Part shown: positions 23,481 through 27,986 of the stretch, piece after piece
Numbering within the stretch: position 1 is the first letter of the stretch
Layout of the letters: each line of letters opens with the position of its first letter
Assembly: GCA_016861045.1 (NCBI GenBank)
Contig: BOKP01000003.1
Coordinates: 311,501 to 375,500 of the forward strand
Origin: Actinomycetes bacterium
GTDB taxonomy: Bacteria; Actinomycetota; Thermoleophilia; Solirubrobacterales; 70-9
DNA: 64,000 nt
Direction: 5' to 3'
Notes under the pieces: generated by a model
What the model saw: only the letters and a program-made list of their open reading frames with translations
Database searches by the model: none
Told to the model about the DNA's origin: nothing
Position numbers and translations under genes: made by a program

Positions 23481-23486
23481 AGCCTA
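23481..23486 (-). promoter_or_regulatory. -10 box of ftsY over the smc stop codon
   Basis: TAGGCT on the minus strand, 8 nt before the GTG at 23472. Its TAG is the stop codon of smc (23484-23486). Confidence 0.55.
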
Positions 23487-25835
23487 CGCGGCGCGCCGGT
23501 CCGGCTCCGCCCCGGCGAGCCGGGGCTCGCGCGGCAGCCGCCGTGAGACGACCTTCGTCGCCCCGTCCTTCATGCTGACCCCGTAGAGGACGTCGGCGGC
23601 GTCCATGGTCCGCTTCTGGTGGGTGACGATCACGAACTGGGCGCGGTCGGAGAAGCGCCGCACGAGCTGCAGGAAGCGGTCGATGTTGGCGTCGTCGAGC
23701 GCCGCCTCGACCTCGTCGAGGATGTAGAAGGGCGAGGGCCGGGCGAGAAAGACGCTGAAGACGAAGGCGAGCGCGACGAGCGACTTCTCCCCGCCCGAGA
23801 GCAGCGAGAGCCGCCGCGTGGCCTTGCCGGCGGGGGTCACCTCGATCTCGACCCCGGCGACCTCGGCCGGATCGCGATCCTCCTCCTCGTCGGCCTCCGC
23901 GGCCGGCTCGTCGGCTCCGGCCGCCGCGGCGCCGCCGGCGTCGGCGCCGCCGAGCACGCGTGCGGGACGCGGCTCCTCGACCAAGCGCAGGCGTCCGCTG
24001 CCGCCCGGGAACATGTGCTCGATCAGCTCGCTGAAGCTCTCGCCGGCGGCCTCGAAGGTCTCGTCGAAGGCGGCGGCGATCTCGCGGTCGGTCTGGCGGA
24101 TCAGCCTGCCGAGCTCGTCGAGGGCGCGCTCGAGGTCCTCGCGCTGGCCCTCGAGCTCGGCGACGTGCTGCTTCGCGGCCTCGTACTCGCCCCCGGCGAG
24201 CGGGTTGACCGGCCCGAGCTGCTCGCGGCGCCGGATCAGCCTCTCGATCGAGGCCTCGACGGAGGATCGCTCCGCGGCGTCGAGCGCGACCGGATCGGGT
24301 GCCGGGTCGAGCTCGAGCCGGGCGACGATGCGCCCCCACTCGGCCTCCGCCTCCTCGCGGCGGTCGCGCAGGCCGGCGGCACGGACCTCGGCTCCGGTGA
24401 CGCGCTCGGCGACGAGGCGGAGCTCGCCGTGGAGCTCGGCCTCGACCCGCGAGCAGTCGCGCAGCTCGAGCGCCAGCTCGTCGCCCTCCGTCGCGCCGAC
24501 CACTTGCTCCTCGACGGCCGCCGCGCGGGCGCCGACGGCGTCGCGGGCGGCCGCCAGGGCGGTGCAGAGCGCGGCGAGCGTCGCCGCGAGCTCCGCCTCG
24601 GCCTCGATCCTGCGCTCGAGCGAGTCCTGGCGGCGGTGGCCGAGCAGGTCCTCGGCCCGCCGCGCCGAGCGGGCGGCCCGCTCGGAGCCGCTGCGGACGG
24701 TCGCCAGCGCCTCCAGCCGGGCCGCGACGCCTGCGGCGTCGGCGGCCGCCGCGATCGCCTGGCTCGCCTCGCCGAGGGCCGCCCGCGCCGACTCGAGCTC
24801 GCGGACAACCGCCACCTCGGCGTCGCGCTCGCTCGCGCGCAGCTCGGCGGCGAGCGCCCCGAGCGATGCGCGCCTGCGCTCGACGGCGGCGGCCAGCTCC
24901 GCCTCGCGGGCGGCGATCGCCTCGGTGCGGGCGCCGAGCCGCTCGTGGGCGGCGCGCAGCGCCGTCAGCTCCGCCCAGACCGCGGTGCGCTCGCGATCGC
25001 GGGCGGCCAGCCGCTCCTCGACCGCGCTGCGGCGCTGGTTCGCCTGCTCGAGCCGGGCCTCGATCCCGTCGCGCTCGCCTCGCGCCGCGCGCACCTCCCG
25101 CTCCGCCGCAGCGAGGTCGCCACCGCCGGCGGTGAGCCGGTCGCCGAGCAGCCGGAGGCGGAGCTCGAGCGACCGCCGCTCGAGGCGGGCGTGGGTCTCG
25201 GCCGCGTTCGCCTGCTCGCGCAGGGGGCGAAGCCTGGAGCGGGCCTCGCGCTCGACATCGAGCGCCCTATCGAGGTTGGAGCGGGTGCGCTCGATCTTCA
25301 GCTGGGCACGGCGGCGGCGCCTGCGATGCTTCCCTAGGCCCGCCGCCTCCTCGATCAGCAGGCGCCGCTCGCGGGGCTTCGAAAGCACGATCTCCTCGAC
25401 CTTCCCCTGGCCGATCACCGAGTGCATCTCGCGCCCGAGGCTGGCGTCGGAGAGCGCCTCGGTCACGTCGGCGAGCCGGCAGCGGGCGCCGTTGAGGCGG
25501 TAGCCGCCCTCGCCGTTGCGATCGAGGCGCCGGGAGACGGAGATCTCGCTGAACTCCGAGCCGGCGGCGCCGTCGGAGTTGTCGATGACGACCTCGACCT
25601 CGGCGGCGTTGCGTGCTCCGCGGTCGCGGCCGCCGGCGAAGATCACGTCCTGCATCGACTGGCCGCGGACGGCGAGCGGGCTCTGCTCGCCGAGCGCCCA
25701 GAGCACCGCGTCGGTGATGTTCGACTTGCCGCAGCCGTTCGGACCGACGATCACGCTGACGCCCGGAGAGAACTCCAGCTCGGTGCGCTCGGGGAAGGAC
25801 TTGAAGCCCTTCAGCGTGATCGACTTCAGGTGCAT
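23484..25835 (-). CDS. smc: Short SMC-type condensin ATPase without a hinge
   Basis: A 783-residue SMC protein. The N-terminal head has Walker A GPNGCGKSN (31-39), the ALGEQSP element and VIGQGKVEEIV (about 140-150). The C-terminal head has the signature LLSGGEK (678-684), Walker B FYILDEVEAALD (703-714) and the usual switch region. The coil between them is only about 365 residues (175-540), against roughly 850 including a 150-residue hinge in a normal bacterial SMC. No hinge-like Gly-rich segment is visible; residues 340-480 are plain Ala/Glu/Arg coil. An acidic insert lies at about 625-660. ScpA and ScpB genes are at 60.7-62.1 kb. Confidence 0.93.
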   Translation of the reverse strand: MHLKSITLKGFKSFPERTELEFSPGVSVIVGPNGCGKSNITDAVLWALGEQSPLAVRGQSMQDVIFAGGRDRGARNAAEVEVVIDNSDGAAGSEFSEISVSRRLDRNGEGGYRLNGARCRLADVTEALSDASLGREMHSVIGQGKVEEIVLSKPRERRLLIEEAAGLGKHRRRRRRAQLKIERTRSNLDRALDVEREARSRLRPLREQANAAETHARLERRSLELRLRLLGDRLTAGGGDLAAAEREVRAARGERDGIEARLEQANQRRSAVEERLAARDRERTAVWAELTALRAAHERLGARTEAIAAREAELAAAVERRRASLGALAAELRASERDAEVAVVRELESARAALGEASQAIAAAADAAGVAARLEALATVRSGSERAARSARRAEDLLGHRRQDSLERRIEAEAELAATLAALCTALAAARDAVGARAAAVEEQVVGATEGDELALELRDCSRVEAELHGELRLVAERVTGAEVRAAGLRDRREEAEAEWGRIVARLELDPAPDPVALDAAERSSVEASIERLIRRREQLGPVNPLAGGEYEAAKQHVAELEGQREDLERALDELGRLIRQTDREIAAAFDETFEAAGESFSELIEHMFPGGSGRLRLVEEPRPARVLGGADAGGAAAAGADEPAAEADEEEDRDPAEVAGVEIEVTPAGKATRRLSLLSGGEKSLVALAFVFSVFLARPSPFYILDEVEAALDDANIDRFLQLVRRFSDRAQFVIVTHQKRTMDAADVLYGVSMKDGATKVVSRRLPREPRLAGAEPDRRAA

Positions 25836-25905: not shown

Positions 25906-26634
25906 TCATTCCGCCTCGGAGCCGAGCGCCTCGGCCGCCGCCGCCTGCTCCGCCGCCTTCTTGCTCGACCCCGATCCGGTGCCGACGACCACCTCGTCGA
26001 CCCGGGCCTCGACCTCGAACGTCTTGTCGTGCGGAGGGCCCGATTCCACCGTGACCACGTAGCGGACCTGGCGGCCGCGGCGGGCGAGGCGCTCCTGCAG
26101 GGCCGACTTGAAATCGAGCAGGGTTCCGGAGGCGAGCTCGATCTGGGGCGCGAACGCCGCCAGCAGCGCCGCCGCTGTCCGGTCGAGGCCGAACTGCAGG
26201 TAGCAGGCGCCGATCAGCGACTCGACGATCGAGGCCATGGCGCGCTCGCTGGCGATCAGCTCGGCCGGCGCCAGCCCGCCCTCGAAGCCGTCCGGATAGG
26301 CCTGCTCCAGCATCGCCGGGACCCCGAGCTCGAGCGCGATCTCGGCGCACGCCCGACCGCTCACGACCTGGCCGTGGATCTTCGTCAGCCGGCCGATGTC
26401 CGATCGCGGGAAGCGGGCGAAGAGGTGCTCGGCGACGGCCAGCCCGAGGACGCTGTCGCCGAGGAAAGCGAGCCGCCCCCAGGAGCGGACGCGGCGCTCG
26501 GTCCAGGAGCTGTGCGTCAGCGCCTGCAGGCGGGCTCCGGACTCGAGCCCGGCGATCAGCCCGAGCAGGGGCCCGACCGCGCTCGGGGTCGGAAGGTCCT
26601 CCTCCAGCGGGTCGGCCGATCCCGCGTCAGGCAC
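25906..26634 (-). CDS. rnc: RNase III family protein with altered active site
   Basis: A 242-residue protein with an RNase III domain (about 20-160) and a normal dsRNA-binding domain (about 170-238, ending GSGSSKKAAEQAAAAEAL). Residues matching E. coli E38 and E41 (NERLEFLGDS) are Gly53 and Ala56 (WGRLAFLGDS); D45 is kept as Asp60. The position of D114 is Ser135 (ASIVESLIG), while E117 is kept as Glu138. So two of four metal ligands are missing. dsRNA binding should persist; cleavage is doubtful. GTG start overlaps the acpP stop. Confidence 0.9.
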   Translation of the reverse strand: MPDAGSADPLEEDLPTPSAVGPLLGLIAGLESGARLQALTHSSWTERRVRSWGRLAFLGDSVLGLAVAEHLFARFPRSDIGRLTKIHGQVVSGRACAEIALELGVPAMLEQAYPDGFEGGLAPAELIASERAMASIVESLIGACYLQFGLDRTAAALLAAFAPQIELASGTLLDFKSALQERLARRGRQVRYVVTVESGPPHDKTFEVEARVDEVVVGTGSGSSKKAAEQAAAAEALGSEAE

Positions 26635-26902
26635 CGGGCAGCTGCTCGAAGACGAAGTCGACGGCGGCGCCCACGGTCTCGATCCGCGCCGCCTCGTCCT
26701 CGCCCATCGTGATCCCGTAGGTGTCCTCGAGCTCCATCACGAGCTCGTAGAGGTCGAGCGAGTCCGCATCGAGGTCGTCGCGGAAGCGGGTCTCGTCGGT
26801 GATCTCGCCCGCCGGCACCTCGAGCTCCGCCGCGAGGTGGTCGCGGACCATCGCGAAGATCGTCTCGCGATCGACAGCGGACTGCTCGCCGGCCGTGCTC
26901 AT
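26627..26902 (-). CDS. acpP: Acyl carrier protein
   Basis: A 91-residue ACP. Ser48 in DLDADSLDLYELVMELED is the 4'-phosphopantetheine site, within an acidic helix II. The N-terminal extension of about 10 residues is short. It sits between plsX and rnc, the common bacterial order, but fabD, fabG and fabH are not in this cluster. The start at 26902 fits the family; the longer frame overlapping plsX is rejected. Confidence 0.95.
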   Translation of the reverse strand: MSTAGEQSAVDRETIFAMVRDHLAAELEVPAGEITDETRFRDDLDADSLDLYELVMELEDTYGITMGEDEAARIETVGAAVDFVFEQLPGA

Positions 26903-26918
26903 TGCCCCGGAACGTGTA

Positions 26919-27986
26919 TCACGACCGCGCTCGGGACTCGCGGATCGCGCCGCGTCCCGCGCCCGACTCCGCGACCAGCGCCGCGGTCCGATCGACCGCA
27001 CGCTCGCGCGCGGCGCGGGCCGCGAGACGGATCTGGCCGGCGATCCCGAGCGAGCCCGCGGAGCCGTGCCCGACCACGGCCACGCCCCGAAGCCCGAGCA
27101 GGATCGCGCCGCCGGTCCGGTCGGGGTCGAGCTCCGCCCGGAGGCCGCCGAGCGCCGGCCGCAGCAACAGCCCGCCCGCGGCCGCGAGCGGGCCGGAGCG
27201 GGCCGCCTGGCCGACGGCGTCGCCGACCGCCCGGGCCGTGCCCTCGATCGTCTTCAGCACGACGTTGCCGGTGAAGCCGTCGCTGACGACGACGTCGGCG
27301 TCGGGGTCGAGCAACTCGCGTCCCTCGACGTTGCCGGCGAAGTCGATCCCGTCCGCCCCCCTGAGGGCGGCGTGCGCCTCGACGACCGCGGCGCTTCCCT
27401 TCTTCGCCTCGGCGCCGACGCTGAGCAGCCGCACCCGCGGCGCCTCGACCCCGAGGACCGCGCCGGCGAACGCGGCGCCGAGGTAGGCGAACTGGACCAG
27501 GTGCGAGGGCCGCGCGTCGGCATTGGCGCCGACGTCCAGCATGAGCAGCGGCCGCTCCCGCCCGGGCGCCGGCAGCTCGACGGCGAGCGCCGGCCGCTGG
27601 ATCGAGCGGATCCGCTTCAGGGCGAGCAGGGCCGCGGTCATCGTCGCCCCGGTCGAGCCGGGGCTGGCGAGCGCGTCGGCGCGGCCGGCGGCGACGTCCG
27701 CGGCGGCGCGGACGATCGAGGCGTCGGGGCGCGTGCGAACGGCGCGGACCGGCTCCTCGTCGTTGCCGATCACCTCGGTCGCGTCGACGATCTCGATCAG
27801 GTCCGAGGCGAGCCCACCGTATTCCGCGACGGGGCCGTGGACCCGGACCGCGATCCCGTCGGCGGCCGCCGCCCGCACGCCCGCGGCGACGGCCCCGCTC
27901 CCGGCCTCGGCCCCGAGCGCGTCGAAGGCGACCGTGACCCGCTGCTTCGGCGTCGCGCCCGGCGGGGACGCCGCCGGGGCTCCCAC
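26919..27986 (-). CDS. plsX: Phosphate acyltransferase PlsX
   Basis: A 355-residue enzyme making acyl-phosphate from acyl-ACP for phospholipid synthesis. Visible segments are RVTVAFDALGAEAG (the usual DxMGGD start is changed to DALGAE), ASPGSTGATMTAALLALKRI, LLMLDVGANADARPSHLVQFA and DVVVSDGFTGNVVLKTIEGTA. The GTG start follows the L32 stop codon directly. Its genomic partners are rpmF upstream and acpP downstream. Confidence 0.93.
   Translation of the reverse strand: MGAPAASPPGATPKQRVTVAFDALGAEAGSGAVAAGVRAAAADGIAVRVHGPVAEYGGLASDLIEIVDATEVIGNDEEPVRAVRTRPDASIVRAAADVAAGRADALASPGSTGATMTAALLALKRIRSIQRPALAVELPAPGRERPLLMLDVGANADARPSHLVQFAYLGAAFAGAVLGVEAPRVRLLSVGAEAKKGSAAVVEAHAALRGADGIDFAGNVEGRELLDPDADVVVSDGFTGNVVLKTIEGTARAVGDAVGQAARSGPLAAAGGLLLRPALGGLRAELDPDRTGGAILLGLRGVAVVGHGSAGSLGIAGQIRLAARAARERAVDRTAALVAESGAGRGAIRESRARS

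Follow-up and report, generated by a model that had tools for sequence, protein, structure and literature searches.

An RNase III of the Solirubrobacterales without the E41 carboxylate and with an arginine or lysine where eukaryotic enzymes have a catalytic lysine

The rnc gene studied here lies in a stretch of 64,000 nucleotides (hereafter the window; positions 311,501 to 375,500 of contig BOKP01000003.1, assembly GCA_016861045.1) from a bacterium of the order Solirubrobacterales, class Thermoleophilia, phylum Actinomycetota. It encodes a homologue of ribonuclease III (RNase III) in which alanine and serine have taken the places of E41 and D114, two of the four catalytic acids. Loss of E41 is a fixed trait of the whole order and has a single origin. 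We propose that the protein is an order-specific bacterial class I RNase III that would still cut double-stranded RNA (dsRNA) with a rebuilt site, consisting of D45, E117 and a helping basic residue at position 110; judged from sequence comparison, this proposal is evenly poised. Positions are those of E. coli RNase III, except where a residue of the window protein is named. Counts refer to 300 RNase III sequences, of which 159 are from Solirubrobacterales (130 of them different), 71 from other Thermoleophilia and 70 from other Actinomycetota. The gene, its domains and the residues in question are the following.

25906..26634, minus strand: rnc, RNase III homologue of 242 amino acids, GTG start at 26634 (open reading frame list, domains, alignment, AlphaFold2 model)
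26125..26574, minus strand: nuclease domain (RIIID), about residues 21-170 (Pfam, AlphaFold2 model, fold matches)
25924..26109, minus strand: dsRNA-binding domain, residues 176-237 (dsrm, 65 bits, cut-off 23)
26476..26478, minus strand: Gly53, replacing E38 of the RNA-contact surface; the residue drifts within the order (E/G/A/T/S/D/V)
26467..26469, minus strand: Ala56, replacing E41, a ligand of magnesium ion A (MgA); Ala in 159/159 sequences of the order and in 130/130 different ones
26455..26457, minus strand: Asp60, equal to D45, a ligand of magnesium ion B (MgB), kept in 300/300 sequences
26395..26397, minus strand: Ile80, replacing E65 of the RNA-contact surface; acidic in 1/159 of the order
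26242..26244, minus strand: Arg131, at position 110, where eukaryotic enzymes have their catalytic Lys (K6) according to alignments and the offset from E117
26230..26232, minus strand: Ser135, replacing D114; Ser in 118 and Glu in 41 of the 159 sequences of the order
26221..26223, minus strand: Glu138, equal to E117, which bridges MgA and MgB, kept in 300/300 sequences

Both active-site segments align to E. coli RNase III without gaps (NERLEFLGDS with WGRLAFLGDS, and ESILADTVEAL with ERAMASIVESL), with Asp60 and Glu138 at the two retained acids and Ala56 and Ser135 at the two replaced ones. A sequence-only reading of the window had already listed the changes of E41, D114 and E38, the retention of D45 and E117 and a normal dsRNA-binding domain, all of which are borne out; it had missed the loss of E65 and the presence of Arg131, and gave no strand. 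Acids a few residues away that would restore E41 and D114, which that reading had named as a way to overturn it, were looked for and are ruled out, as both segments are gap-free and the E41 segment is ungapped in 151 aligned loci. A sequencing or assembly error is ruled out by the same Ala in 130 different sequences, and a single aberrant genome by its presence in every sequence of the order.

The sequences were drawn from genomes of the order, the class and the phylum, together with 80 named loci, and the Solirubrobacterales group was chosen by the residue at position 41. This group matches taxonomy: all 79 of its loci from coded genomes fall within the order's four families (36, 29, 11 and 3), and among the loci from coded genomes none outside the group belongs to these families. 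Conexibacter arvalis, Solirubrobacter phytolaccae, Patulibacter minatonensis and Svornostia abyssi are among the named loci of the group. Three further loci (L201, L202 and L231), two from records titled Bifidobacterium breve and one from a record titled Chlamydiae bacterium, carry a typical Solirubrobacterales rnc and are probably mislabelled metagenome bins. Position 41 is Glu in all 71 sequences of other Thermoleophilia and in all 70 of other Actinomycetota, and position 65 is acidic in 140/141 of these. Position 114 is occupied by A (48), D (13), N (6), E (2) and G (2) in the other Thermoleophilia, and by D (59) and N (11) in the other Actinomycetota. These counts place the weakening of D114 earlier and over a wider range of lineages; the loss of E41 happened once. 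Asn114, seen for example in L292, L300-L303, L305, L307, L309, L311, L275 and L331, resembles the residue of some eukaryotic RIIIDa domains.

Phylogenetic trees of 97 and 221 rows, built without the seven trait columns, place the Solirubrobacterales in one clade (Shimodaira-Hasegawa-like approximate likelihood ratio test, 99) with one change at position 41; these were quick trees without bootstrap, in which E. coli joins some long branches. The loss of E41 as an order-wide trait of single origin is thereby confirmed. When the DNA pattern encoding RLA[F/Y]LGD was searched over 396 genomes of the phylum, 55 places in 50 genomes were obtained; of the 41 that were examined, 11 are the order's rnc and 30 lie outside the order, none of the latter being an RNase III (0/30). 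Our literature search returned no report on the RNase III of Thermoleophilia or Solirubrobacter, and nothing apt on inactive or natural RNase III variants.

What the two retained acids do in the well-studied enzymes bears directly on whether the protein cuts. Sections of PMC9291653 assign E41 and E117 to MgA and D45 and E117 to MgB, D114 contacting no Mg. In Table 1 of PMC8708148, E. coli E41A, D114A, E65A and E38A show weak activity in excess Mg2+, and E117A, E117K and E117Q lose cleavage and keep RNA binding; D45A also still binds RNA. The acids retained by the order are thus the two whose loss abolishes or nearly abolishes cleavage in E. coli, so that the protein is probably still an enzyme. 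A pure binder would not need D45 and E117, and their invariance in 159/159 sequences argues against one. Among the 130 different sequences of the order, whose mean pairwise identity is 59%, Ala41, G44, D45 and E117 are all invariant; positions 38 and 65, once acids of the surface, each vary among at least five residue types. That Ala41 is frozen while 38 and 65 vary speaks against relaxed decay. The ratio of nonsynonymous to synonymous substitution rates (dN/dS) of the nuclease domain is 0.14-0.16 against the nearest relatives, loci L152 and L153 giving figures identical to those of L016 and L017.

The sequence-only reading had expected a protein that binds dsRNA and may not cut it, another RNase processing the rRNA. 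Such a pseudoenzyme, which might regulate or chaperone structured RNA, would agree with the replacement of two of the four catalytic acids in every member of the order, with the presence of RNase E/G and RNase J, and with the mitoribosome chains of RNase III fold found among the fold matches. Mitoribosomal RNase III-fold proteins serve as ribosomal proteins and are not known to be catalytic. The frozen Ala41, the invariance of D45 and E117, although E. coli mutants in both still bind RNA, and the retention of long pre-rRNA stems described below go against it, and we consider it rather improbable. Inactive RNase III-fold proteins such as maize RNC1 are not known to keep the D45 and E117 equivalents, and in this the window protein, where both are invariant, differs from them. 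Substituted catalytic positions are what it shares with RNC1, a protein called inactive in a section of PMC8708148.

Long pre-rRNA stems, a putative substrate, are retained as well. Stems were identified by an ungapped helix scan of the rRNA flanks, after long-window duplex folding had proved uninformative, in 12 genomes with a 16S gene found among 19 searched (10 of the order and two of other families). The 16S and 23S flanks pair into stems of 19-46 bp in all 10 genomes of the order, each with a complete rRNA operon. Stem scores exceeded the best of 20 mononucleotide shuffles in 20/20 cases in the order and in 4/4 in the two genomes of other families, and two-sided compensatory changes are present in 5/25 columns of the 16S stem and 4/21 columns of the 23S stem. 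RNase E/G and RNase J, both present, could share in the processing of rRNA. The other candidate that the sequence-only reading had proposed to look for, a further RNase III or Mini-III, was not found in the window's genome (one Ribonuclease_3 match at E<=10). When 44 further genomes of the order were searched, one (G272) gave two pieces and each of the remaining 43 a single match. With a single RNase III domain per genome, no Mini-III or second copy replaces the RNase III of the window type. Taken together with the invariant acids and the basic residue at position 110, these data make binding without cutting appear less likely than that reading had supposed.

Two observations were made alongside this survey. 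In the rRNA operons L335 (G164) and L343 (G122) the match to the 23S model extends over about 3.7 and 5.3 kb, respectively, the normal length being 3.0 kb; this points to inserts such as introns or intervening sequences. In G176, from another family of Thermoleophilia, there are two RNase III domains (L084 and L092), for which bin contamination (4%) is the simple explanation.

The basic residue lies seven positions before E117, one helical turn ahead of position 114. In the order, 156/159 sequences have Arg or Lys at position 110; among the other Thermoleophilia 5/71 do, and among the other Actinomycetota 0/70. In phmmer alignments, Arg131 of the window protein stands opposite a Lys of human Drosha RIIIDb and of Arabidopsis DCL1. 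Its place is that of the eukaryotic residue K6; the residue is Arg, not Lys. Passages of PMC5357909 give the same offset in Entamoeba EhRNaseIII (K112, with D116 and E119) and in K. polysporus Dcr1 (KpDcr1; K217, with E224, which appears as E224Q in the title of the structure), and name K313 of Rnt1p as the equivalent Lys. The same passages state that bacterial RNase IIIs conserve neither this Lys nor an Asn, and that a change of Lys to Ala at this site strongly reduces cleavage by Dicer and Dcr1. According to sections of PMC9291653 (2022), the eukaryotic Lys touches the scissile phosphate, acts with MgA and replaces the third Mg of the bacterial enzymes. In our sequences S114 is always accompanied by Arg or Lys at 110 (118/118 sequences, 101/101 different ones), and where 114 is D or N, as in 90 sequences, Arg or Lys never occurs at 110.

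We picture the course of events as a descent from a normal rnc. On the stem of the Solirubrobacterales, Ala took the place of E41, the RNA-surface acid E65 disappeared, and position 110 turned to Arg at the same stage; D114 is now Ser or Glu, having been weakened beforehand in the greater part of the class. The dimer would continue to bind and cut dsRNA. MgB, on the leaving-group side, would be held by D45 and E117, and MgA, if present, would be held only by E117, water and an RNA phosphate. Placed like the eukaryotic Lys beside MgA, R110 could touch the scissile phosphate and make up for some of the positive charge that is missing. With E65, and often E38, gone, charge repulsion would fall and RNA binding should tighten. 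The rRNA would be matured by cutting of the leader-trailer stems. Carried further, this scheme would mean that the order has abandoned the metal-ion mechanism which all RNase IIIs are said to share, in favour of essentially one protein-held metal (D45, E117) and a charge-substituting Arg; we put this forward tentatively, as possible rather than probable. If true, it would mean that an active site universal elsewhere has been rebuilt in nature throughout one order, with one residue convergent with the eukaryotic enzymes.

Several findings weigh against a site rebuilt around R110. Three of the 159 sequences of the order lack a basic residue at 110, all of them with Glu114, and the five sequences of other Thermoleophilia that have one retain E41. 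The gains and losses all fall on one branch, so that the association of R110 with position 114 counts as a single event; the phylogenetic independent-pairs test had one usable pair and no power, and we therefore make no statistical claim for an association of R110 with the loss of D114. The Asn that eukaryotic enzymes have as N5, some 33 residues beyond D45, is absent: the window protein has S92/G93, and in the order the corresponding positions 77 and 78 are S in 156/159 and G in 139/159. Gln74, which is order-specific (73/79), was considered as the counterpart of N5 and ruled out, N5 lying about one helical turn later. Against more distant family members (four comparisons), dN/dS of the nuclease domain is 0.46-0.69, with dS probably near saturation in this GC-rich DNA. 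E41 and D114 are both replaced here, whereas the weak activity in excess Mg2+ listed for E. coli belongs to E41A or D114A alone. In the window's own genome, small-subunit rRNA was not found and large-subunit rRNA only in pieces (G000:C3:183094-185000), and these genes may be missing in the assembly; the evidence on stems comes accordingly from other genomes of the order. The stems, moreover, may be kept for ribosome assembly and be cut by RNase E/G or RNase J.

Some of these data would also suit an enzyme that is active without a new catalytic residue. D45 and E117 alone would hold the metals, cleavage would be slow and dependent on high Mg2+ or on Mn2+, and R110 would have a structural or RNA-binding role. 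The weakly active E. coli E41A and D114A, the invariance of D45 and E117, and the presence of R110 in lineages that retain E41 (5/71) are all consistent with such an enzyme. It leaves unexplained, however, why Ala41 is frozen and position 110 basic in 156/159 sequences while 38 and 65 drift, and we regard it as unlikely. Far less probable still is that another carboxylate stands in for E41, be it E109, E114 in those members that have it, or an acid contributed by the dimer partner. Position 109 is more often acidic in the order (0.82 vs 0.11; Asp or Glu in 116/130 different sequences) and Glu114 is present in 41/159, but 109 is variable (Gly, Gln, Val and others in 14/130), and helical periodicity does not bring it to the side of D114 and E117.

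The window protein can be compared with several known systems. With the class I RNase III of E. coli and Aquifex aeolicus the window protein has in common the fold, the dsRNA-binding domain, the ungapped signature, D45, E117 and the acpP/smc context; it differs in Ala41, Ser114 (Glu in some of the order), the loss of E65, Arg110 and a score below the cut-off of NCBIfam TIGR02191, the RNase III equivalog model (149.3 bits, cut-off 166.25). This cut-off is exceeded in 1/42 genomes of the window genome's own family. As far as sections of PMC9291653 and PMC5357909 describe it, the eukaryotic N5/K6 site (Rnt1p K313, K. polysporus Dcr1 K217, Entamoeba K112) shares the basic residue at E117 minus 7; the window protein differs by having Arg for Lys and no N5 Asn, and by its bacterial rnc descent on the tree. 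Eukaryotic RNase IIIs also keep E1 and D3 (with D changed to N in some RIIIDa), both of which the window protein lacks (A56, S135). The engineered 'bacterial Dicer' EcEEQ (E38A/E65A/Q165A), described in a section of PMC9291653, has its three changes at positions where the window protein naturally has G, I and A. EcEEQ retains all four catalytic acids, whereas the window protein does not, and Ala165, which occurs in 28/70 other actinobacteria, is not special to it. The order as a whole is an exception to an acid thought universal and to the absence of the K6 Lys site from bacterial enzymes. In it nature provides a case for testing whether two protein-anchored metals are required by RNase III, what function a basic residue has at the K6 site, and how a catalytic acid that looks essential can go while the gene stays.

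The assignment to bacterial class I rnc agrees with domains, structure and context. The nuclease domain scores 64.8 bits with Pfam Ribonuclease_3 (cut-off 27). The AlphaFold2 model has a mean predicted local distance difference test score of 88.8 and matches M. tuberculosis RNase III (2a11) with Z 19.1 and a root-mean-square deviation (rmsd) of 2.2 over 141 aligned residues, and the E. coli postcleavage complex (7r97) with Z 17.8 and rmsd 6.2 over 211 residues. On the tree the protein falls within Thermoleophilia rnc, and the gene has the neighbours that the sequence-only reading had given, all three on one strand.

26627..27001, minus strand: acpP, with an 8-base overlap with the rnc start
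23484..25835, minus strand: smc, the downstream neighbour of rnc, 783 amino acids, on the same strand as rnc

The SMC protein encoded by this neighbour has both head halves and no SMC_hinge domain. SMC_hinge (PF06470) is missing genome-wide in 13/16 genomes of the window genome's own family, and was found in 15/15 genomes of the order's other families and in 10/10 of the class's other families. This points to a hinge-less chromosomal SMC in one family. The distance from Walker A to the signature in SMC is 643-679 residues in seven hinge-less relatives, compared with 934-953 in three hinge-bearing ones.
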